The notes beneath the pieces are model-generated. The model was not told the origin of the DNA and did no database searches. It saw only the letters and a program-made list of their open reading frames with translations. Positions 7,790-23,291 of a DNA stretch of 33,002 nucleotides are shown in pieces (the stretch's first letter is position 1; every line of letters begins with the position of its first letter). The DNA is from Acidobacteriota bacterium (GTDB lineage Bacteria; Acidobacteriota; JAAYUB01; JAMOQF01), in NCBI GenBank assembly GCA_027064125.1, contig JAMOQF010000176.1:1-33002 (forward strand). Direction: 5' to 3'. The translations under genes and the position numbers were made by a program.

Positions 7790-10700
7790 TTAGTCAGCAT
7801 CACAGTGAAATACATCAAAGTCTAATCCGTTGTTATCCTCTACCCTTACTCCATAGACTTTTTCTACCCATAAGAAGTGAACTTCTCCAGCAGCTCCAAG
7901 CCCATTGTGATACAATTTCTCACATTCCGCATCTCCAAAACTAAAGGGCATATATGGATAGTTATATACAAATCCTCCATCTGCACCTGCATTTATTATC
8001 GAAACTATATGGAGATGTAATCCACCTTTTGAGTATACCCAGTCATCGTGCCAGTTCATGGTAAGGTCAAGATTTCCTGTCACACTTATTCCTGTTACAT
8101 GTAACCCTTCATCGGGATCCTCTCCAAGCCATGCAGATGCATCAATTTCATCATTTGGAATGCTTATATCAATTTGAGCAGATGAGAATGGAAAATCTCC
8201 AACTTCAACCACCCCAACCCCACGTAATTCTCCGATGGTACTTACACTCAACATTGAATCAAGTTTAAACATGCCAGTGGCATCTGAAACAACACCGTCG
8301 AGTTCAACTTCCCAGTAATCCTGTGGATTGTGATAGTGATATAGACAACCACCTGCTTCATTCAGGAACAAACCAGTACTTGAAAGAGGTATCCTCATTC
8401 CTGTTGCGGCAAGACATGCACTGTTAAAGGTTCCATCCCAGCCAAAATCAAAACTGAATTTTATTCCAACCATTGATGGTACCTGAAGGGTTCCACTTCC
8501 ATATATGTGTTCCTGATCAAAACCAAAATTACCGCCACTAAATGTATAATTTCCTATTTCAAAGGAAGGTAAGGACATTCCCCCTTCAAGTACATCCCAG
8601 CCACTGTTTAACACTCCGCCACCGGGATGTTTGCGAAGGTGTATAAAGCCTCCTGCTTCACCACTTATAAATTGTGGTAAACTGACATATCCTTCCACAT
8701 ATATTTCTCCGGGGCCAGGAAAACTCACATTTCCTGAAAAGGAATAGGCACCTATCGTTACGGACCCAGAGGTTCCCCCCACACTTAAAATGTGCCCATT
8801 CATATCAACTACCATATCACTTACTGAAACACTTCCAATTCCATCCACCAGGATTCCGCCTGTTAAGTGAAATCCTGGAATGGAAGCATCATATTGAGCA
8901 TCTCCATTAAAACTAAAGCCCTCGATCTGGCCAGACATACCGGTTAACTGAAAATCTGCAAGTTGTACCCCTGATGGGGTGTTTACAAGGGTAATAACCC
9001 CAGTTGCAGAAAGTGAAACCTCATCTGAATTCAAACCGATTGTACCTGAAAGAATTGTATGAGCACCATCCCAACTTGCCATAACATTATTTAAATAGAG
9101 ATCACCTATCTGTATATATCCACTCTGATAGGTAATGGTTCCATAACTATATACAGTTCCATCAAGTCCAACAGTTAAACCATTTATAGTAACATTTCCA
9201 TACTGTCCAAGTATTGCCTGTCCATTTATAACTATTCTATCGGGGCTACTCAGATAAGTTGCATTTCCGCTTATTGAAAAATCATTGTAGGATGCTGATA
9301 TACCGGTTATATTCATCTGGGTCAAATGAACCCCACCTGCAGTTGTAAATATGGCCTGGGCAGATGCGGAAAATCCAAGTACTCCCCCACTTAACTGAAT
9401 TCCATTAACTGAAATCGTGCCACCAACCATCAAGGCACTCCCATTCCAACTCACAATTACATTTGTTAAAGTGGCATTTCCTATTTGCATATAACTATTG
9501 GTATAGGTTATAGTTCCATAACTATAGACATGGCCATCAAATCCAACTTCAAGATCCGAAACTGAAACATTTCCATAACCTCCAATTGTGGCACTTCCGT
9601 CTATTTTAACCCTGTCAGGATTCTGAAGATATTGGGCACTACCATCTAAAATAAAGTCATTATAGGCAACATGAACATTTGACAGATTCAAACTCACAAG
9701 TTGAAAACCGCCACTTCCGAGGATAAAGGACGCATTTCCACCAAAGGCAAGGTCCATGGTCCCACCGGCAAGTTGGACATTGGGAATTAAGATATTTCCA
9801 GACACATACAGATTTGTGGAACTCCAACTTATACTTACATCTTTAAAGGTTACATTTCCAACAGTAAGTGTAGAAAGATTATAGGTTAATGTTCCATAGT
9901 TATAAACTGTTCCGTCAAGACCTATCTCAAGGTCATTAAAAGTAACATCCCCATATTGGGAAAGATGCGCACTACCATCTATTCTTATTCTGTCTGGAGA
10001 ATGGAGCAACACGCCACTACCCACTATTGAAAAATCACCATAAGTTGCCATTACCTTTGTTATTGAAAAATTTTGAACAACAAAACCTGACCCATTATTT
10101 ACTAACCCCACACTTACATTTGCAGTAAAATCAAGTGCCTGCCCGGAAAGGGAAACATTGTTTATATTTATATTCCCAGAAATATTTATGGCATCTGCAC
10201 TTAAACTTATTAAAAGATTGTTTATGGTAACATTATCTATCACAATCTGGGGGTTCTGATAAATAAGTGTTCCATAACTATAGACAGTTCCATCAAATCC
10301 AACCTCAAATCCATTTAATGTAAATGTACCATACTGAGTTGTATCAAAGGTTCCACTTATTGAAAGTCTGTCTGGATTGTGAATTAAATGTGCTTCTCCA
10401 TTTAAAGTAAATCCACCACCCACAACACTAAAATTGTTCACATCAAATTGTGAAAGTTGCAATCCTCCATCAATGGTAAAACTTGCTGAAGCAGTTGTGT
10501 TAATGGTTACAGGACTACCTGCAATCATTACATCTGGTATCGTTATATCACCTGAAATTCCAATGTGAAAGTCATCCAGAACAACATTCACATTATTTAT
10601 TGTGGCTCCATTAATATTTATACTACTACCACTATAGGTAACGGTACCATAAGAATGGACATGTCCATCAAGTCCCAATATCATATTCTCAACTGTCAAT

Positions 10701-13700
10701 GTTCCATACTGTCCAAGAACTGCATTCCCATTTAAGGTTATTTCATGGGTATTTCCATTATATGAACAACCACCACTGAAGGTAAAATCACCATCACTCA
10801 TGTTAAAATCGCTTATATCAAGAGACTGTAAATGACCTCCACTTATAACGGCACTGCCATTTGTTATGAGATTAAAGTTGTGTCCACCAATTGGGATGTT
10901 ATCTATCTCCACAGTGCCACTTACCTGTAAGGAATTTCCATCCCAGGTTATCTGGGCATTTGTAAAAGTAACCCCATCAATTGTGAAGGTATTGGCAGTA
11001 TAGGTTATGGTACCATAGTCTATCACATGCCCATCAAGACCTATTACAAGCCCGGATACATTCAAAGTTCCATAAATACTATTTGTAACTGTTCCATCAA
11101 TTGTGATGGAAGGAGGATTTGAACTATAAGTAACATTTCCATTTATTGTGGTGCTTTGAGAAGCCCCACTTATCTTGGTTATTTCAAAGGATTCAACGGT
11201 GGCACCTCCACCATTTAACCCAATTACCATTCTGACACTTCCTGAAAAATCAAAGGTTTCCCCCATCAACAAAACGCCACTAATATCAAAATTTCCATCA
11301 AGAATTAGATTGCTATCGGTTAAAACCACCGTTGGATTATTAATTGTCAAATTTTGATAGGTAAAGGAGTTTCCATTAAATACAACCGTGCCATAGGAAT
11401 AGACCTGACCATTAAAGCCAACTTCAAAATCGCTAAAATGAAATACACCCAAATCAGTTTCTATTTCCCCTTCAAGTTGCAATCTATCTGGATTGTGAAG
11501 TAAATATACATTTCCGTTAATCTGTACTGATCCACCTGTAACAGTGACATTATCAAGCAAGAAATCATTTAAAGTGGCTGCATTTCCAGAAAAACCTATC
11601 TCTGCAATTGCTCCTCCAGAAATATTTAGAGTAGTCCCCCCAAATGGAATGTTGCTAATTGAAAAATTACCTGATATGGAAAGGTTATCCTGTTTGAGTT
11701 CTACTGAAACATTTGTTAAAGTGATGTTATCAATCACAATATTGTCATTGTTATATAAGACACTACCCAAGTTAACTATGGAACCGTCCAATCCAACTTC
11801 AAGATCCGAAACCTGAAAATTCCCATAATTACCTGCAACAAGAGTCCCATCTATCCTTATTCTGTCTGGATTTTTGTAGAAGGAGGCATTACCATCTACC
11901 ACAACATTTCCCGCTTCTCCATGGATGGAGGAGATATCAAGTGCTGAAAGTTCAAGATCTGACCCCATAAAGGAAAGCATTGCCGTGATATCTGAAGAAA
12001 ATGTCAAGGGCGCTCCCATCAAGGTAACATCCTGAATTTTAAGACTCCCCTGAAGGTAAATTCCATCCCCATCCCACTGGACAAGCATATTATTTATATT
12101 TGCACTTCCTATGTTAAAGCCATTTCCACTGTAAGAAACAGTTCCATAAGAAAAAATATGTCCATCAAATCCAACCGTTAAATTTTCAAAATTCAATTCC
12201 CCATACCCATCTAAAATTGCCTTACCATTGAAGGTTAATTTATAGGGATTTGTTTCAAATGTACCACTTCCAGTCAGTGTAAGGCCACCTAAAAAACCAT
12301 TAATATTATCTGCCTCAAAATTTTCAAAAGTAAGATGTCCATTTTGAAATGTAAAATTGGCATTTGCATGCAAAGTTAACTCACTTCCAGCAAGTGGAAC
12401 ATCTGAGATTCTCAAATCACCATCTATATGAATTCCACTACTATCCCATACAATTTGAGGATTAAAAACTTCAATTCCATCAAAGGAAAAATTAGAACTA
12501 TTCACGGTTAAAGTGGGATAATTTAAAATCACAATTTGATTGTCCATGACAAATGAAGATAACTTCAATCTCAGATTGCTAATTGAAACCGTTCCCACTG
12601 ACGGCAATTCAAGGGTCCCATCAACCTGAAAATAATCTTCATCCGGATTTACAGAGACCACCACGCCATTTAAATCTATTTCAAAAGCATCACCTGGTAA
12701 AAAATCTATTCCATCGTGAGAGGTCATATCAAAGGGATCACCTTCATTTACAACCCTTTGACCCTTTAAATAACTATCCCAATATGTAAATTTTGAAATT
12801 GAAAGGTTGTCATAATCGGAAATATATTGATCAATTTCCGGTGGAAAATATATGGAAAATCCCTCAAAACCACCTTTTGCCTTTGAATAATTTCCAATTA
12901 CCATCTCATCCAGAATGTTGTTAAGTTTTCCCACACTATCATTTAAAGTATAGGCCTTTACGCTAATACCATTTAAAAAACTTCTAAAATCAACAAGAGA
13001 TAGACCCTCTTCATAGCCTATGGGATTTGTATTACCTCTCCACTCTCTTGCGATATCACCTGTTTTATTATCAAACTCCAGACTTATCAATGAAAACACA
13101 AATTTATTAAATGCATCAATGAACTGATCGGAAAAACCTGTATCAATTAAGGCAAGATGAGGTAATCCTTCCTTTTTAGCACTTATAAATAACTTTTTAA
13201 GTGACATATCAAAGTCACCATCTTCTCCACTTCCCAATGGATCCAAAAAGGTACTATACCAAAAATTCCCATCCAGATTTCCTCTTTCACAACCTGCATA
13301 GTAGGAAGTAACGTCTTTGAAGGCAAGAATATTTTCCAGGTTCAACTCATAGGGAACATCCATAAAAATCAAATTAAACTTCTTACCAGTACTTTGAGAA
13401 AAATCTGAAAGCAGAGAAGCAATATTATTTTCCCCTGAAATACCGAGTTTTCTACCTGTTTTTGGATTGGAAACAATATCAGAGAAGAAATCTCCATTCT
13501 CAGAAGAAAAATCGGCATAAAACCTTTTCAGGATAAAGACATAGTTGTCCGCTGGAAAATTATTTTTACAATAATTTAAAAAATAGGAAAGAGTAGTGGG
13601 ATCTCCTATGTCATAACCATTTCCATCAAGATATTCAACATTCAAATGCTTTTCATCTAAATCCTGATTCACGAGAAAAATTCCATTTTCACCGTGATTG

Positions 13701-13921
13701 TTTAGTTGTGTATTTGTGAAAAGTAAAACATTGCAATTTTCATTGCCACCAGCAAGTTCAAGATCGTTTAAAAAATTGTAAACCTCATCGTTAATAACCT
13801 GAGGACCATTCATATAAACCATGACGGTCCACTTTTTATTACCTGATTGGGAATATACACAAATTCCCATAAAAAAAGAAAAAATCAAAATGAATAAGAT
13901 AAATAGATGGATCCTCTTCAT
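7790..13921 (-). CDS. Giant exported protein: clostripain-like pseudopeptidase domain plus ~125-aa beta repeats
   Basis: 2043 aa, signal peptide about residues 1-24 (ending VYSQ). Residues 30-390 match peptidase C11 (clostripain) in layout: WTVMVYMNG at 31-39, VFILKRFYADF at 128-138 where active members have ILWDHG, FNLIFMDVP at 182-190 where they have FDAC, and the late signature GFEGFSIYFP at 351-360 followed by WDSYLKG. Both catalytic residues (His, Cys) are therefore absent. From about residue 410 the protein is a beta-rich array with Gly-Asp-Gly turns: at least nine units of ~125 aa, each with GLDGxVYSYGTxxY and NPDRxxIDGxA motifs. A distinct ~350-aa C-terminal region follows (GGCLYHYHNPQDYWEVELDG; ends FDVFHCDAD). 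No anchor or transmembrane segment is seen after the signal peptide, so it is secreted or surface-associated. GGAGG precedes the ATG. Likely an adhesin-, scaffold- or structural-type surface protein; function unknown. Confidence 0.85.
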   Translation of the reverse strand: MKRIHLFILFILIFSFFMGICVYSQSGNKKWTVMVYMNGPQVINDEVYNFLNDLELAGGNENCNVLLFTNTQLNNHGENGIFLVNQDLDEKHLNVEYLDGNGYDIGDPTTLSYFLNYCKNNFPADNYVFILKRFYADFSSENGDFFSDIVSNPKTGRKLGISGENNIASLLSDFSQSTGKKFNLIFMDVPYELNLENILAFKDVTSYYAGCERGNLDGNFWYSTFLDPLGSGEDGDFDMSLKKLFISAKKEGLPHLALIDTGFSDQFIDAFNKFVFSLISLEFDNKTGDIAREWRGNTNPIGYEEGLSLVDFRSFLNGISVKAYTLNDSVGKLNNILDEMVIGNYSKAKGGFEGFSIYFPPEIDQYISDYDNLSISKFTYWDSYLKGQRVVNEGDPFDMTSHDGIDFLPGDAFEIDLNGVVVSVNPDEDYFQVDGTLELPSVGTVSISNLRLKLSSFVMDNQIVILNYPTLTVNSSNFSFDGIEVFNPQIVWDSSGIHIDGDLRISDVPLAGSELTLHANANFTFQNGHLTFENFEADNINGFLGGLTLTGSGTFETNPYKLTFNGKAILDGYGELNFENLTVGFDGHIFSYGTVSYSGNGFNIGSANINNMLVQWDGDGIYLQGSLKIQDVTLMGAPLTFSSDITAMLSFMGSDLELSALDISSIHGEAGNVVVDGNASFYKNPDRIRIDGTLVAGNYGNFQVSDLEVGLDGSIVNLGSVLYNNDNIVIDNITLTNVSVELKQDNLSISGNFSISNIPFGGTTLNISGGAIAEIGFSGNAATLNDFLLDNVTVTGGSVQINGNVYLLHNPDRLQLEGEIETDLGVFHFSDFEVGFNGQVYSYGTVVFNGNSFTYQNLTINNPTVVLTDSNLILDGNFDISGVLLMGETFDFSGSVRMVIGLNGGGATVESFEITKISGASQSTTINGNVTYSSNPPSITIDGTVTNSIYGTLNVSGLVIGLDGHVIDYGTITYTANTFTIDGVTFTNAQITWDGNSLQVSGTVEIDNIPIGGHNFNLITNGSAVISGGHLQSLDISDFNMSDGDFTFSGGCSYNGNTHEITLNGNAVLGQYGTLTVENMILGLDGHVHSYGTVTYSGSSININGATINNVNVVLDDFHIGISGDITIPDVMIAGSPVTINTTASASFTIDGGLQLSQFDVNNFSVVGGGFTLNGEAHLIHNPDRLSISGTFDTTQYGTFTLNGFEVGFDGTVYSYGTLIYQNPQIVIDNVTINNLLISLSADAINISGNININNVSLSGQALDFTANVSVGLVNNGSGFVVQNFSITKVMATYGDFSIVGSGVLLHSPDRIRIDGSAHLSQYGDVTFNDLEIGLDGTVYNYGTLTYNLSTLTVGNVTFKDVSISWSSTNLYVSGNILIPNVQLAGGTMDLAFGGNASFILGSGGFQLVSLNLSNVHVAYNDFILDGSAQYLQNPDRVKIDGSATIGGYGNVSVSDLEVGFDGHVYSYGTITYTNSYMQIGNATLTNVIVSWNGSALMVGGTISVNGIQLSGGVLGFSASAQAIFTTAGGVHLTQMNITGISASYNDFSISGNATYLSSPDRIVINGQAILGQYGNVTINGLTVGLDGTVYSYGTITYQSGYIQIGDLYLNNVMASWDGAHTILSGTIGLNSDEVSLSATGVITLVNTPSGVQLADFQLTGMSGQIEGFSFNGDAQYDASIPGFHLTGGILVDGIGSVSVSDMVVDMNGHILSVGGTSGSVTIGAYSFSGNVSFPGPGEIYVEGYVSLPQFISGEAGGFIHLRKHPGGGVLNSGWDVLEGGMSLPSFEIGNYTFSGGNFGFDQEHIYGSGTLQVPSMVGIKFSFDFGWDGTFNSACLAATGMRIPLSSTGLFLNEAGGCLYHYHNPQDYWEVELDGVVSDATGMFKLDSMLSVSTIGELRGVGVVEVGDFPFSSAQIDISIPNDEIDASAWLGEDPDEGLHVTGISVTGNLDLTMNWHDDWVYSKGGLHLHIVSIINAGADGGFVYNYPYMPFSFGDAECEKLYHNGLGAAGEVHFLWVEKVYGVRVEDNNGLDFDVFHCDAD
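8990..12500 (-). repeat. Coding tandem repeat array (~375-bp period, about nine units)
   Basis: The SYGT-coding segment recurs near 9145, 9517, 9897, 10274, 10648, 11012, 11391, 11767 and 12147, a spacing of 364-380 bases. Units are divergent at DNA level in most places, but some share long exact runs: AATCCAACTTCAAGATCCGAAAC is present near both 9540 and 11790, suggesting occasional recent copying between units. Confidence 0.85.
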
Positions 13922-15312: not shown

Positions 15313-15399
15313 TGGTGCCGAAGGCGGGACTTGAACCCGCACGCCCGGTTGGGCACCACCCCCTCAAGATGGCGTGTCTGCCAGTTCCACCACTTCGGC
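15313..15399 (-). tRNA. tRNA-Leu (anticodon GAG)
   Basis: The minus strand folds as a class II (long variable arm) tRNA. The acceptor stem is GCCGAAG/CTTCGGC with discriminator A and an encoded CCA. The D region is TGGTGGAACTGGCAGACACG, the anticodon stem CCATC/GGTGG with loop TTGAGGG (anticodon GAG, reading CUC/CUU), the variable arm TGCCCAACCGGGCG, and the T arm GCGGGTTCAAGTCCCGC. It closely resembles E. coli tRNA-Leu(GAG). The 86-aa ORF over it is spurious. Confidence 0.96.
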
Positions 15400-15461: not shown

Positions 15462-16580
15462 CTATATTTCTTCTATAAATCCCCTTTTTTTTAGATCAAG
15501 GAGTTCCTTTAAAAGTTCATTTTCCTTTAAAGGAACCAATTTTAGGAGGGAATCAACATCCATTCCACCATTGATTCTGGAAAGTAAAAATGCATCAATT
15601 GGAGATATATCCTTATATTTTAATTCAGAAAGAGATACCTTAAGTTTAAATCTCTTTCCATTTTTAAAATGCTTTTTTAAATGTTCCAACTCAAAATTGT
15701 CAATTGAACTCTTTATATCATCATACTCTTTGCCATTAATTATAAAGTGCATTAATTCAAAAAGGGACTCTCTCGCTTTTTCAAACTCAAGTTTTTGGAG
15801 GTGTTCCTTAATCCTTTCCTTTATCTCCCTTTTTTTCCTATCATAATACTCATTTTCAGAGAGCCCTTTGTGGACTATTTCCACAAATCCTTTTTTAAAA
15901 AGGTTAAAAAGGGCAGAAGTAATTTCAAACTCCCCCCTCCTTGTAGCACACATAAGTTCCCTAACAGAAGAAGGAACCTTTAAGTATTTAAGGATTTCCC
16001 TTTCAAAGGGAGTCAATTTGTCGCCTTCAACATCTTTCTTTTCAACTAATTTAAAAATGGTATTTATATCCGGTATAAATTCCCTCAACTCTTTCCAAAT
16101 TTTTATCCTTTTAACACCTTCCACAATGATATCATTTAAATTTATTTCAATCTTAATTCCATTAAACTCTTCAAAATCAGACTCAGTAAAATAGTATTTC
16201 ACATTTTTCCACATAAAAATATCAAGTAAAAGTTCCCTATAATTATCCTTCACAAGGGAAGACAACTCTTCTGATGAAATCCCGGTCAATTCAGAAATTA
16301 TCTCTCCAATTTTTCTGCTCCCATCTATCTTCTCCTGAAACTCAAGGGCTTTTTTCAAAGTATTTTCATCTATTATTCCCTTACTTATTAGAAACTGGCC
16401 AAAAAGCCTGAAGGGGTCACTTGAAGAAATCCCCACCAGTTCCCCATTTTTGAAAAATAACTTTATGGAAAATTCCCCCTTCACCACCGTTAAAACACCA
16501 CTTTTGGATGTAACAGAAAGCCACTGTAAGATATCGCCAAAAAAACTATCCTCACCAAAAAACGATAAATCCCTTTTCAT
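15462..16580 (-). CDS. DUF4388 domain protein with winged-helix-like C-terminal part
   Basis: 372 aa, soluble. The N-terminal region (about residues 8-75: FFGDILQWLSVTSKSGVLTVVKG...IKLFFKNGELVGISSSD...FGQFLISKG) is a DUF4388/PatA-type domain, found in regulatory and gliding-motility-related proteins of Myxococcota, Acidobacteriota and similar phyla. The following ~50 residues (IDENTLKKALEFQEK...KIGEIISELTGIS) resemble the GspE-N/DUF4388-associated helical module. The rest contains repeated small helical units that look like winged helices (TPFEREILKYLKVPSSVRELMCATR; SPIDAFLLSRINGGMDVDSLLKLV). No enzyme motif is seen. Its ATG overlaps the selB stop (ATGA), so it is translated with SelB, though a functional link to selenoprotein synthesis is not implied by the domain. 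Confidence 0.75.
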   Translation of the reverse strand: MKRDLSFFGEDSFFGDILQWLSVTSKSGVLTVVKGEFSIKLFFKNGELVGISSSDPFRLFGQFLISKGIIDENTLKKALEFQEKIDGSRKIGEIISELTGISSEELSSLVKDNYRELLLDIFMWKNVKYYFTESDFEEFNGIKIEINLNDIIVEGVKRIKIWKELREFIPDINTIFKLVEKKDVEGDKLTPFEREILKYLKVPSSVRELMCATRRGEFEITSALFNLFKKGFVEIVHKGLSENEYYDRKKREIKERIKEHLQKLEFEKARESLFELMHFIINGKEYDDIKSSIDNFELEHLKKHFKNGKRFKLKVSLSELKYKDISPIDAFLLSRINGGMDVDSLLKLVPLKENELLKELLDLKKRGFIEEI

Positions 16581-18457
16581 AATCTTATCCTTCTAACATT
16601 TCCAAATCTTAAAGTAACACCTTTTCTATCCAGAAGTTCAAGAAGGGGAATTGCCCTTTTTCTGGTAAGTCCAGTTAAATCTTTAAAATCTCCAACAGAA
16701 AATTCTCCCGACCTTCCAAACTCTTCTTTTATTTTTCTAACAAGATTCTCAAAAACCCTCGAAGATATAAAAAAATCCCTATTTACAGCAATAATTTTTC
16801 CCCTTGAAATTAAAATTTGAAATATTTCTCCACCTTCTCTGCCAAATTTCTTTTCAAATTCTTTTGGAGAAATTCCTTCAAGCCCCCTTTTAAATACAAA
16901 TTCCTCATATTTATCCATTTTCTCATTTTCCACCCCTTTTTCTTCACGGTAAAAATCAAAATGAAAAATAACGTTATTTCTCTTAAAGGCGATTTTTTTT
17001 CTAAATAGCAAATCCAGTATTATCGAAAACATCAAGTTATCATAAAGTTTAAGCTTCTTCTGTAGGTTCTCCTTCTTAATTCCTCCCTCTCCTGAATTCT
17101 TCAAAAGTTCTTCAATATGACTAAAAATCTCTTCAATGTACTTTTTATTTACGTAAAATACTTTATCTTGATAATTTAATATACCAACAACACCATCATC
17201 CACAAGTTTATCCAAAACAGAAATTATTTTATCTTTATCTCTTCCAATTTTCTTCACAAGATACCCAAGGGTATGGATACCATTTTCCAGTTCATGTTTA
17301 ACAAAATCCTTTAAACCACATTTATCAAGTTTAAATAAAATATTTTCTTTTCTTTTTAATTCCTTCTTTCTTAATTTCCGGGAATTTATCTCAAGGATCT
17401 TCCCTCCCCCAATGGTTATTTCCGGAGAATATTGCCTTATGATAAATCTATCACATGGAAGAGAAAAAACTTCATCCTCAAGCCTTATTTGAGCAACTGT
17501 TTCCTCCCCTCTATCGAGAAAATTTTTCCCATCTGGAAAATAAACCTTTCCTACACTGTGAAAAGTCCCTGCATAAAAATGGATTTTATGGCCATCTTTT
17601 ATTCCCTTTTTATGGTTAACGGAACATCTTATTTTAACATTCAAAATTTGAAAGGGCTCAAATATATCCGGTAAAGTAAGACACACACCCCTTTTTAAAG
17701 AACTATAATCTACTCCAGAAATATTTAATGCTGTTCTCTGCCCTGAAAACGCCTCCTTTACATTTTTTTCATAAACCTGAATATTTCTTACCTTGCACCT
17801 TTTATCTAATGGAAGGATCTCCAACTCATCTCCCACTTTAAATTTTCCATCAATTGTTGTTCCAGTCACCACTATCCCTATTCCCTTCAATTTGAAAACT
17901 CTATCCACATATAATCTTGGTATCCCCCTGTCATCTCTTCTTACCAGTTTCGCCATCTTTAGTAAAGCATTTCTCAATTTTTCAAAACCTTCAAGAGTAA
18001 TTCCAGAAACTGGAACAAAATCAACTACATTAAAATCATATTGAGATAAAAAAAGAGACACATCTTCAATCCTTTTATTAACTGTGGTTCTCTCCACAAG
18101 GTCAATTTTTGTAATTGCCACAACAATATTTTTAATTTCAAGCATGGAGCAAATGTCCACATGCTCAATAGTTTGCGGCATTATGCCCTCATCAGCAGCA
18201 ACCACAAGCAAAACACCATCAATACCACTTACCCCCACAACCATATTTTTCACATATTTTTCATGTCCAGGAACATCCACAAAACCCATGTTAACCTCTG
18301 GAGTTATCCAGGGAGCAAATCCTATATCAATGGTTATCCCAAGTTCTTTCTCCTGAATAAGCCTGTCTGCGTCTATTCCAGTCAATCCCTTTAAAAGCGT
18401 TGTCTTACCATGATCAATATGCCCTGCTGTGCCAAAAACAACATTTAATTTTTCCAA
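16577..18457 (-). CDS. selB: Selenocysteine-specific elongation factor SelB
   Basis: Delivers Sec-tRNA(Sec) to UGA codons marked by a SECIS hairpin. GTPase motifs: G1 GTAGHIDHGKTT, G2 ELGITIDIGF, G3 DVPGHE, G4 TKIDL. Domain II/III EF-Tu-like beta barrels follow (PRLYVDRVFKLKGIGIVVTGT). The C-terminal third is the series of winged helices that bind SECIS RNA, ending DLTGLTRKRAIPLLELLDRKGVTLRFGNVRRIRL. Length (626 aa) is typical. The start is TTG, set by a perfect AGGAGG five bases upstream that overlaps the end of amrS. selA, selD and tRNA-Sec are not in the window, and no in-frame UGA selenoprotein was seen here. Confidence 0.95.
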   Translation of the reverse strand: MEKLNVVFGTAGHIDHGKTTLLKGLTGIDADRLIQEKELGITIDIGFAPWITPEVNMGFVDVPGHEKYVKNMVVGVSGIDGVLLVVAADEGIMPQTIEHVDICSMLEIKNIVVAITKIDLVERTTVNKRIEDVSLFLSQYDFNVVDFVPVSGITLEGFEKLRNALLKMAKLVRRDDRGIPRLYVDRVFKLKGIGIVVTGTTIDGKFKVGDELEILPLDKRCKVRNIQVYEKNVKEAFSGQRTALNISGVDYSSLKRGVCLTLPDIFEPFQILNVKIRCSVNHKKGIKDGHKIHFYAGTFHSVGKVYFPDGKNFLDRGEETVAQIRLEDEVFSLPCDRFIIRQYSPEITIGGGKILEINSRKLRKKELKRKENILFKLDKCGLKDFVKHELENGIHTLGYLVKKIGRDKDKIISVLDKLVDDGVVGILNYQDKVFYVNKKYIEEIFSHIEELLKNSGEGGIKKENLQKKLKLYDNLMFSIILDLLFRKKIAFKRNNVIFHFDFYREEKGVENEKMDKYEEFVFKRGLEGISPKEFEKKFGREGGEIFQILISRGKIIAVNRDFFISSRVFENLVRKIKEEFGRSGEFSVGDFKDLTGLTRKRAIPLLELLDRKGVTLRFGNVRRIRL

Positions 18458-19555: not shown

Positions 19556-19810
19556 TTACATTAAACCCTTATCACCCATTTCCTTTGCAAGATCCACTTC
19601 ACTATCAGTCAACTCACTCTTAACACCCAATCTCATACAGGCACCTTCATAAATCTGCTTTGCAGCCTTTTTTGCATTCTGGAGTTCAATTAATCTTTGC
19701 TTAACCCTTGCAAGTTCTTCTTCTATCTTTTTTTCAATGTCTTCAATCTCCTTGCGTGCCATCTCTCTTGTTTCTTCATAAAATTTCCTTTGTTCTTTTG
19801 TTAAATCCAT
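19556..19810 (-). CDS. Small coiled-coil protein of unknown function
   Basis: 84 aa. Residues 1-55 are a continuous charged amphipathic helix (TKEQRKFYEETREMARKEIEDIEKKIEEELARVKQRL) predicted to form a coiled coil. The tail is LGVKSELTDSEVDLAKEMGDKGLM. No signal peptide, membrane segment or catalytic motif. GGAGG is well placed before the ATG, and there is only a 49-base gap after the kinase-TonB gene, so it is probably a real gene co-transcribed with it. It may be an accessory of that fusion protein, but this rests on position only. Confidence 0.75.
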   Translation of the reverse strand: MDLTKEQRKFYEETREMARKEIEDIEKKIEEELARVKQRLIELQNAKKAAKQIYEGACMRLGVKSELTDSEVDLAKEMGDKGLM

Positions 19811-19859: not shown

Positions 19860-22800
19860 TTAAAACTTAATCCTCACAGTTTTCCAGACACGAACCTTTA
19901 CCCCATTTTTTTCAGCAGGTTTATACTTCCACTTTTTAAGAGAATTTTTGACACTTTCACTAAAAAGAGCCCTATTCCTCGGTGGAAGTACAGTAATAAT
20001 TCTAACTTTTTCCACTTCCCCCCTATGATTTATCAAAATTCTTGTTATAACAGTGGCATGCGCCCTTAAAATCTTCGCCTTAGAAGGATATGTGGGTTTT
20101 GGAGTTTTTATTGGTTTAGGAGGATTCACAGAAGAATCAAGGGGAACAATATCTCCCTCTTTAATAATTTTTCCAGTGGCCTTACTCCTGGTAGGTACAA
20201 TTGTTGTGGTGGTTTTAACGGGAGTAGAAGTAACTGGTTTAACTTGAGGCTTTTTCGTAACAACAGTAGGTTTGGTTGGCTTTACAGTAGGTTTAGCTGT
20301 TACAACCTTCTTTTCAGGCACCACCTTTTGAGATGGTTTTGAAACAACACTTACCTTCTTCTTTTCAACATTTTTCGCTTCAACAGGTATGGTTTGAACC
20401 TTTTTTTCAACATTTGAAGGAGGCGTTTTAGTTGAAGTTATTGGAGTTGTCGTTTTCTCTACTGGCACAAAAGGTTTTTTCTCTGTAGGTTTAAGGGTTG
20501 AAGAAGTAACAGGCCGTTTCTGAGTACTTACAGACGTGTTTGAAACACTTTTCGTTTTGGTTTTACCGGTAAAAGATTTTTTTGCAACCTGCTTAACAAC
20601 AGGAGTTTTCTCAGCAGGTGGCGTTGTGACTTTACCAGTGGTGGAAGGTTTTGAAGGAGTTATACCAACATTTTTACCCGTTGTTTGCTCACTCTGAATT
20701 CCAATATTTTCACTTCCACTTTCAGTTGTAGTAGCTGGTAATTCCTCTCCGATACCAGAAGAAGGAGTCTCAGATGTTGAAAGGGAATTTACTTTAGCCA
20801 CCTTTACAGGTTTTTTACTTTCTTTCCCTCCACCTCCAAAGAGAAGATATAAAACAACAGCTATCCCAACTATCACCAAAGCAGCGACTACAAATAACCT
20901 GCTCTTAGAACTTTCCTTCTCTTCTTCAGTACCAAAAGCAGGAGATGTAACCTGAACTTCAGGTTTTTTAACCTGTTCTTTACTCCTTAACTTTTTTGTG
21001 ACAGTAGTTTTTCTGGGTTTTTCAGGGGATATAACAGGTTCCTTCTTAACCGCCTTTTCAACAGCCTTTTTCTTTTCAACCTTTTTGGTCTTCACGGGAG
21101 TCTTTGCTGAAGGCTCCACTTTTTTTGCAACCACTTTTTTCTTTACTACAACTTTTTTCTTTGGCTGTTCAACTTTTTGCTTCTGTTCCACAACCTTTTT
21201 CTTAACCTTTTCCCCACTCAAAATTACCGTATCTTCTGAAAGTAGTTTTTCCCCCTCCTCAAATTTTTCCATAAAATCGTCAAATGTTAAATTTTTAACG
21301 TCCTCCGGTTTAAGTCCAAATTCTTCAGGATACAACTTCGTCAGAAAAGCTCTTAAATCCTTTGCTGTTGGTACAGGTTTGGATTCATTTATATACCTTC
21401 TCAAATCCGCTGCCATTTCAGCTGCTGTTTGATATCTCTTTTCAATATCTATTTCAAGGGCCTTTTTAATTATTTTTCTAAGTTTTGGTGGCACCTTGTT
21501 TATCTCATTCTCCAAAATCGGCATTTTCCCACTTCTGACCTTTTCAAGAACATCATATTCAGAAGAATCTTCAAAAAGCACCTTGCCACTTACAATCTCA
21601 CACAGCACAATCCCCATGGAATAGACATCAGACCGCTTATCTACATCTTTACCCCATGCCTGCTCCGGGGACATATAGAGAAGTTTTCCCTTTAACGCTC
21701 CCTTAACCGTATGATGTATTTTTGATTCCGCCTTTGAAATACCAAAATCAACTAATTTTACTTCCCCTTCCTTCGAAATTAAAATATTTTGAGGACTTAC
21801 ATCCCTGTGAACAATTTTGAGATCTCTTCCCTTATAATCTTTTTTATGATGTGCATAATCAAGGGCACTACAAATCTGTTCAGCAATATATGCAGCCAGT
21901 TTATGGGGTATTCTTATATTTAACTTTTTAGCTTTACTTAAAATCTTCTTTAAATCAAAGCCATCCACAAATTCCATTGCAATATAGTATGAATTGTCTA
22001 TCTTTCCGAAATCAAAAATGGTTGCAATATTCTGGTGGGAAAGTTGTGCTGCAAGTTTCGCTTCATCAATAAACATTGTCACAAGTTCTTTATTATCAGA
22101 AAGATGAGGTAATATCCTTTTTATTGCGAGAATTTTCTGAAATCCCTCTTCTCCCCTCTTTTTTGCTTTAAACAGTTCGGCCATCCCCCCATGTCCAATT
22201 TTTTCTATCAAAATATAATCTCCAAATTTTATCCCCTCTTCTTCCTCTTCTTCAACTTCATCTGAGCGGGGTTCAAGTGTTTTTTCAATATTTGTATCAG
22301 ATAAACCAACTCCATGCAAAGTATCACTCAACTTTTTTTCAATATCGGTATCAAAGGAACTTAAAATTTTTTCAACAGCTTTTTCCCCTTCACTCTTTTC
22401 CTCCTTTTTCTCAACTTCTTCCTTTAATTTTTCAAGCATCAACTCTCCGGTATCTTTTTTCTTTTCAACTTTTTCCTTTTTAACTGTTTCCTTATCAAGG
22501 TCAAGGGCAAGATTTAATGTATCCCTCAAAAGGGCGTCTATCTCTGCGTCTGTATCCACCTTCACCTTTTTTTCAGCTGAGACCTTTTCTCTTTTTTCTT
22601 CAACCGGCATTTCCTTTTTAGCTTCTATCTTCTCTTCAACTTTCTTTTCCCTTACCTCATCTTTAACTTCCTCTTCTTCAGAAATACCTTTAAAAATGTC
22701 ATTTTTAATTTCTACATCCGATTTTTTCACTTCCTTTTTAGAAGTATCTGATTTTTTCCTCTTACTCTTAATTTCCATACCGAGTCCAGACAAAGTCTCA

Positions 22801-23291
22801 CTGATTAATTTATCGAGATCATCTGTATCACTTATCTTTTTATCTATTTTTGACTCCAACTTTTCCTCTTTATGTCTTCTTTTAGACGCAGTCTCTACCA
22901 GTATTTCCTCTTCTACAAAATCTTTTTTTAAATGTTTCTTAACCAGCTTAACCAGAGCCTCATCTGAAATTGGTTTTTCGACATATTCATCAGCCTTATA
23001 TTCAATCTTTGCCTTCATACTGTGGTTTTTCCCCTTATAAATTGAGGTTGCAATAATTACGGGGACAGAAGCACCATCGGGGGTCATTTTTATTTTTTTA
23101 CAAACCTCAAGACCATTTTTCTTGGAAAGCATGGCGGAAAGTAAAACTACGTCAGGTTTTTTCTCTTCAAATTCAGCAAGTACAGAAGGTCCATCATTCG
23201 CTGAAATAACCTCAAAACCTTCCTTTTCAAAAAGTTGTTTAAGTCTTTGCAATTCTTTCGAATTATAATCAGCAATTAAAATTTTACTCAT
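19860..23291 (-). CDS. Pseudo-receiver / Ser-Thr kinase / TonB C-terminal fusion membrane protein
   Basis: 1143 aa in five parts. (1) Receiver-like domain, residues 1-120, with the phosphoacceptor Asp replaced by Ser (VVLLSAML, S52) and the acidic pair reduced to IADY, while the Ser/Thr and Lys (K106, EKP) remain: a pseudo-receiver. (2) Lys/Glu-rich linker, 121-355, with three related segments (LDKLISETLSGLG, IDALLRDTLNLAL, IEKKLSDTLHGVG). (3) Ser/Thr kinase, 356-630: IGHGGMAELF, AIK (K391), HRDVSPQN (D497), DFG (D515), SPEQ; all catalytic residues kept. (4) Basic linker then one TM helix (799-818). (5) Thr/Pro/Lys-rich extracytoplasmic stretch and a TonB-type C-terminal domain (KTPKPTYPSKAK...GEVEKVRI...LKKWKYKPA). 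It probably links cytoplasmic signalling to a periplasmic or outer-membrane partner. GAGGG precedes the ATG. Confidence 0.9.
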   Translation of the reverse strand: MSKILIADYNSKELQRLKQLFEKEGFEVISANDGPSVLAEFEEKKPDVVLLSAMLSKKNGLEVCKKIKMTPDGASVPVIIATSIYKGKNHSMKAKIEYKADEYVEKPISDEALVKLVKKHLKKDFVEEEILVETASKRRHKEEKLESKIDKKISDTDDLDKLISETLSGLGMEIKSKRKKSDTSKKEVKKSDVEIKNDIFKGISEEEEVKDEVREKKVEEKIEAKKEMPVEEKREKVSAEKKVKVDTDAEIDALLRDTLNLALDLDKETVKKEKVEKKKDTGELMLEKLKEEVEKKEEKSEGEKAVEKILSSFDTDIEKKLSDTLHGVGLSDTNIEKTLEPRSDEVEEEEEEGIKFGDYILIEKIGHGGMAELFKAKKRGEEGFQKILAIKRILPHLSDNKELVTMFIDEAKLAAQLSHQNIATIFDFGKIDNSYYIAMEFVDGFDLKKILSKAKKLNIRIPHKLAAYIAEQICSALDYAHHKKDYKGRDLKIVHRDVSPQNILISKEGEVKLVDFGISKAESKIHHTVKGALKGKLLYMSPEQAWGKDVDKRSDVYSMGIVLCEIVSGKVLFEDSSEYDVLEKVRSGKMPILENEINKVPPKLRKIIKKALEIDIEKRYQTAAEMAADLRRYINESKPVPTAKDLRAFLTKLYPEEFGLKPEDVKNLTFDDFMEKFEEGEKLLSEDTVILSGEKVKKKVVEQKQKVEQPKKKVVVKKKVVAKKVEPSAKTPVKTKKVEKKKAVEKAVKKEPVISPEKPRKTTVTKKLRSKEQVKKPEVQVTSPAFGTEEEKESSKSRLFVVAALVIVGIAVVLYLLFGGGGKESKKPVKVAKVNSLSTSETPSSGIGEELPATTTESGSENIGIQSEQTTGKNVGITPSKPSTTGKVTTPPAEKTPVVKQVAKKSFTGKTKTKSVSNTSVSTQKRPVTSSTLKPTEKKPFVPVEKTTTPITSTKTPPSNVEKKVQTIPVEAKNVEKKKVSVVSKPSQKVVPEKKVVTAKPTVKPTKPTVVTKKPQVKPVTSTPVKTTTTIVPTRSKATGKIIKEGDIVPLDSSVNPPKPIKTPKPTYPSKAKILRAHATVITRILINHRGEVEKVRIITVLPPRNRALFSESVKNSLKKWKYKPAEKNGVKVRVWKTVRIKF

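Follow-up and report, generated by a model that had tools for sequence, protein, structure and literature searches.

The window considered here, i.e., the whole stretch of 33,002 nucleotides that was analysed (contig C176 of an Acidobacteriota genome), carries on its minus strand a single, intact open reading frame (ORF) of 1143 aa (19863-23291, or 19860-23291 with the stop codon), in which a receiver, a Hanks-type kinase, one transmembrane (TM) helix and a TonB_C domain follow one another in one chain (Table 1). The Pfam matches of this protein (Response_reg, Pkinase and TonB_C) all exceed the curated cut-offs, and an AlphaFold2 model built with 28 aligned sequences shows a confident receiver, kinase and TonB_C domain, with the linkers between them disordered. 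A fold search with the full-length model gave kinases only among its matches, Stk1 and PknB being nearest to the kinase fold; the receiver fold is assigned by homology to solved receivers (E 9e-17), and the C-terminal part is similar in sequence to E. coli TonB of known structure (1XX3, E 4e-9). An assembly fusion was ruled out, since the entire protein is found again in other genomes, and the counterpart in another genome from this genus (G001) aligns with residues 1-1143 over the full length at 71% identity. A further ORF of 84 aa begins 49 bases after the kinase gene, with a strong ribosome-binding site. Its product was modelled by AlphaFold2 as one helix (residues 5-61, pLDDT 88), and a search against Pfam and NCBIfam returned no family above cut-off.

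Table 1. Features of the kinase gene and its small partner gene, with positions in the window.
Feature	Position	Strand	Evidence
Pseudo-receiver, residues 4-117	22941..23282	-	Pfam Response_reg E 1.8e-18; pLDDT about 93
M1 copy 1, DLDKLISETLSGL, residues 158-170, in disordered cytoplasmic linker	22782..22820	-	recurs family-wide, not in shuffles
M1 copy 2, DIEKKLSDTLHGV, residues 316-328	22308..22346	-	recurs family-wide, not in shuffles; model helix 302-325
Hanks-type Ser/Thr kinase, residues 360-622	21426..22214	-	Pfam Pkinase E 3.9e-43
Single TM helix, residues 799-818, no His	20838..20897	-	hydropathy scan; model helix 800-818
Pro/Thr/Lys-rich disordered periplasmic spacer	20103..20837	-	pLDDT <50 over most of it
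TonB_C, residues 1064-1143	19863..20102	-	Pfam TonB_C E 1.3e-13; pLDDT 89-97
Small partner ORF, 84 aa, one long helix (coiled coil)	19559..19810	-	preceded by GGAGGG; downstream of family kinases

The kinase domain retains K391, E410, HRD (495-497), N502, DFG (515-517) and SPE, and its catalytic residues do not vary among 28 homologues, in agreement with the first-pass annotation, which had called the kinase intact. With catalytic Lys, HRD and DFG intact, the domain is, by its sequence, a Hanks-type kinase. Its setting resembles that of the PASTA-type receptor kinases PknB and Stk1, which likewise combine a Hanks kinase, a juxtamembrane linker, a single TM helix and an extracytoplasmic binding domain. 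However, TonB_C here replaces the PASTA repeats, none of which was found in a Pfam search (PknB_PASTA_kin scored 256 bits vs. a cut-off of 450), and an N-terminal pseudo-receiver and a conserved small partner gene are added. In a comparison of the locus with L047, in which the dN/dS ratios are rough because synonymous sites are saturated, the small protein is the most constrained product (96% identity, dN 0.022, dN/dS about 0.015), the small protein and the kinase are the slowest to evolve, the receiver is also under constraint (dN 0.089, dN/dS about 0.03), and the periplasmic spacer evolves fast (dN/dS about 0.59).

It had been claimed that the receiver lost its phosphoacceptor Asp and one of its acidic pair, and this is borne out by S52 (codon 23136-23138) in place of the phospho-Asp and Y9 (codon 23265-23267) in place of the second acid; D8, T82 and K106 are retained. 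Across 56 family receivers, the first acidic position is mostly Asp or Glu, the second is acidic in none (mostly Tyr or Phe), and the phosphosite is occupied by Ser (20), Arg (11), Glu (10), Asp (5) or else by Tyr, Thr, Ala or Asn. Homologues with Asp at position 52, which the annotation had held against its own proposal, thus nominally exist (5/56), but none of the five has the second acid, and the normal phosphorylation site is missing in 56/56, i.e., the pseudo-receiver assignment holds family-wide. With the fold present, the phospho-Asp gone and the acidic pair incomplete, the domain is, by its sequence, an aspartate-less receiver. A decaying receiver was ruled out, as the degeneracy is shared by the family and yet the sequence is constrained. 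Pseudo-receivers are common: they make up as much as about 4% of all receivers, Acidobacteria are one of the phyla richest in them, and Glu and Ser rank high among the residues that replace the phospho-Asp (PMC4395418). A role as a binding module is therefore to be expected, and a pseudo-receiver is not unusual by itself. The mechanisms of pseudo-receivers remain a mystery according to a 2025 review (PMC12632262). The nearest comparison is with FrzS-like aspartate-less receivers, which have the receiver fold without the phospho-Asp and acidic pair and in which Ser and Glu are common (PMC4395418, PMC12632262). Those are joined to a coiled coil or a DNA-binding domain, whereas the present receiver is fused to a Ser/Thr kinase, a TM helix and TonB_C, and the main texts of PMC4395418 and PMC12632262 make no mention of TonB.

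Family kinases are present in 97 of 347 sampled Acidobacteriota genomes, and the full-architecture relatives in the named collection belong to Acidobacteria, Thermoanaerobaculia and Holophagae. For relatives from Myxococcota, Deltaproteobacteria and Nitrospirae, the match is confined to the kinase domain. Because Myxococcota kinases score similarly over this domain, the family cannot be delimited by E-value alone, and membership was judged by the architecture together with the adjacent small gene. No relative was found in viral contigs.

The conserved small partner gene had escaped the first-pass annotation. Of the 97 family kinases, 89 have it as their immediate downstream neighbour (three of the eight exceptions come from one genus, and one is due to a contig break), and its homologues occupy the same place in 37/40 family genes checked by hand. 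The gene is generally single copy, and its profile finds matches in 118/347 Acidobacteriota. It is absent at 69 loci with kinase relatives, almost all of which are from other phyla, and the profile has no match in 45 genomes with kinase relatives, in 146 Myxococcota or in 118 genomes from the phylum of Manganitrophus; nor did the small protein match anything in plasmids. A wider conserved operon was ruled out, the small gene alone being shared. Neighbouring accD-folC genes recur in several families, as do selB, radical-SAM and DUF4388 genes in the window's order, and both recurrences are read as local synteny. In the window itself, a SelB elongation factor and then a DUF4388 protein are encoded at 15465-18457 (-), and a DUF4388 gene is found near the kinase in several families.

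The disordered linker on the cytoplasmic side has two recurrent short motifs, M1 (DLDKKLSDTLSGV type) and M2 (LTSEDIFGDVLAEVE type), the regular expressions of which have 0 occurrences in shuffled sequences. With scores calibrated on shuffles and motif models trained on proteins of this very family, M1 or M2 rises above the shuffle limit in all 42 receiver-bearing proteins that adjoin a small gene (42/42); three proteins from genomes without the small gene have no motif or a weak M2 remnant. These three exceptions belong to one lineage, and the association between motif and small gene therefore counts as a single evolutionary event. It suggests that M1 and M2 may dock the small protein, a proposal that rests on one lineage and on family-trained motif models.

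The composition of the module varies. Twenty loci were taken at which the small gene has no high-scoring kinase beside it or which lie at the family's edge: seven encode receiver-TM-TonB_C proteins without a kinase, six TM-TonB_C only, two have kinases (L225 and L227), and five are truncated or lack such a neighbour. Since the small gene adjoins kinase-less proteins of both types, the kinase is an optional module. In a midpoint-rooted tree of receiver and TonB_C (224 columns), the kinase-less proteins are nested inside the kinase-bearing family, and the kinase-bearing L225 falls among them with support of 97-98. Such nesting makes loss of the kinase likelier than a late gain, and the kinase was probably lost in these relatives. 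At the phosphosite, every receiver of the kinase-less proteins has Glu (7/7), and so does that of L225. The genome of L225 additionally encodes a receiver fused to a pseudokinase-like domain without TonB_C (L250:96-1874 (+)), which has HGN for HRD and CLE for DFG. A short, kinase-less TM-TonB_C paralogue is present on contig C118 of the window's own genome (L234:5286-6320 (-)); it shares a nearly identical KEGDLVPLDSSVEPP stretch, which in the kinase protein is located in the C-terminal half.

TonB_C can likewise be missing with the rest kept, as in Holophaga-like (L065, L067, L068 and L080) and Thermoanaerobaculia-type (L082, L084 and L104) members. As receiver, kinase, TM helix and small gene are retained there, contact with the outside is not essential to the module. 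Kinase-TM-TonB_C proteins without a receiver also exist, namely the Acidobacteriota paralogues L247-L249, so that the fusion of a kinase to TonB_C is not unique in itself; one case (L246:2774-5092 (-)) occurs in the Myxococcota sample. Their kinases, however, are divergent, scoring about 180-350 bits with the family profile vs. >430 within the family.

In E. coli TonB, a His in the TM helix matters for coupling to ExbBD. This TM His is absent in every family member listed; it is present in the N-terminal TM helix of L001 and L002, the two TonB_C proteins that this genome encodes on contigs with ExbBD. The 33-kb window contains no exbB or exbD, and the kinase gene has no exbBD operon partner. 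A check for ExbBD in the genome, which had been recommended, did find homologues (three of ExbB and six of ExbD), but all on contigs other than C176, i.e., C3, C80, C159 and C174. The earlier claim that the chain ends, past a TM helix, in a TonB_C domain is supported by Pfam, the 1XX3 match and the confident model, whereas the coupling of the kinase to an energy-transducing module is not supported: the TM helix lacks His, the window lacks exbBD, and TonB_C is itself dispensable. While the C-terminal domain is homologous to that of TonB energy transducers, the long cytoplasmic half, the missing TM His and the missing linked exbBD set the present protein apart, and energy transduction by the family protein is not supported by these features. 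The proposal of an unusual, inside-out direction of signalling is also unnecessary, because receptor kinases that signal from the outside in ordinarily have this layout of a Hanks kinase, one TM helix and an extracytoplasmic domain.

The simplest reading of the mechanism is a receptor kinase with TonB_C where the PASTA repeats would be. On balance, we consider it somewhat probable that the protein is a single-pass receptor-type kinase or a trans-envelope scaffold of Acidobacteriota, acting with a dedicated small coiled-coil protein. The ligand, the substrate and the direction of signalling are inferred. TonB_C, on a spacer long enough to cross the periplasm, would bind an outer-membrane or periplasmic partner and may sense contact or tethering without being powered by ExbBD, and such outer contact would alter the clustering or activity of the cytoplasmic half. 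The pseudo-receiver may act as a constitutive protein-binding module, the helical M1 and M2 in the linker may dock the small coiled-coil protein, and the latter could serve as substrate of the kinase, promote clustering, or do both. A bolder version, which we regard as conceivable though rather unlikely, describes a separate class of trans-envelope signalling module, specific to the phylum, in which the TonB_C sensor of a receptor kinase touches the outer membrane and the dedicated coiled-coil protein sits on the linker motifs; given Glu at the phosphosite of the kinase-less relatives and L225, a locked, phosphomimetic-like receiver may have made the kinase dispensable.

Other explanations place the weight on different parts of the protein. 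An ExbBD-energised TonB, the force output of which would be controlled by the attached kinase with the signal running from the cytoplasm to the outer membrane, is very unlikely: the TonB_C domain is genuine and ExbB and ExbD homologues are encoded in the genome, but the His and exbBD evidence above speaks against it, as do the position of the TM helix about 800 residues from the N-terminus and the loss of TonB_C in several lineages. The evidence from His and exbBD only lowers this reading, however, since Myxococcus GltG, which consists of an FHA domain, a TM helix and TonB_C and binds the ExbB-like AglR (PMC3169522), joins a cytoplasmic domain, TM helix and TonB_C in an ExbB-like-driven machine. 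A polarity or motility component like GltG or GltJ, with TonB_C linked to an outer-membrane adhesion complex and an AglRQS-type motor, is itself improbable here. GltG and GltJ share with the present protein a cytoplasmic signalling module, one TM helix, a flexible periplasmic linker and TonB_C (PMC3169522), the FrzS pseudo-receiver is similar in sequence (2GKG, E 2e-11), and the linkers and coiled-coil partner would fit a scaffold. In contrast, the kinase protein has a receiver and a kinase and no FHA domain, no glt- or agl-like genes were recognised in the 33-kb window, and the distribution differs, with the small gene in 0/146 Myxococcota. It is similarly improbable that TonB_C is only a passive anchor, tethered to peptidoglycan or the outer membrane, and that the working unit is the kinase with the small protein as its substrate. 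The loss of TonB_C with the rest kept in Holophaga-like and some Thermoanaerobaculia members and the slow evolution of the small protein and kinase agree with such an arrangement, but other lineages have kept TonB_C and the small gene and lost the kinase instead, which argues for a role of TonB_C of its own there.

A literature search for a kinase combined with TonB_C and a receiver, which reached few subscription journals, found nothing. Each part is known. In the literature searched, there appears to be no description of how the parts are combined, of the conservation of this combination across Acidobacteriota, of the unnamed small gene or of the modular losses. A conserved two-gene envelope module is thereby defined in a large, little-studied phylum, and the undescribed family of small proteins offers an obvious handle on it. 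The receptor-type reading also suggests that signalling kinases may have TonB_C as their outer half with no sign of being powered by ExbBD. Lineages that have lost TonB_C, the kinase, the receiver or the small gene amount to a natural series of deletions in which the function of pseudo-receivers can be studied. Elsewhere in the window, a 2043-aa ORF (7790-13921 (-)) has a sub-threshold clostripain (Peptidase_C11) match only, and a tRNA-Leu (GAG) lies at 15313-15399 (-).
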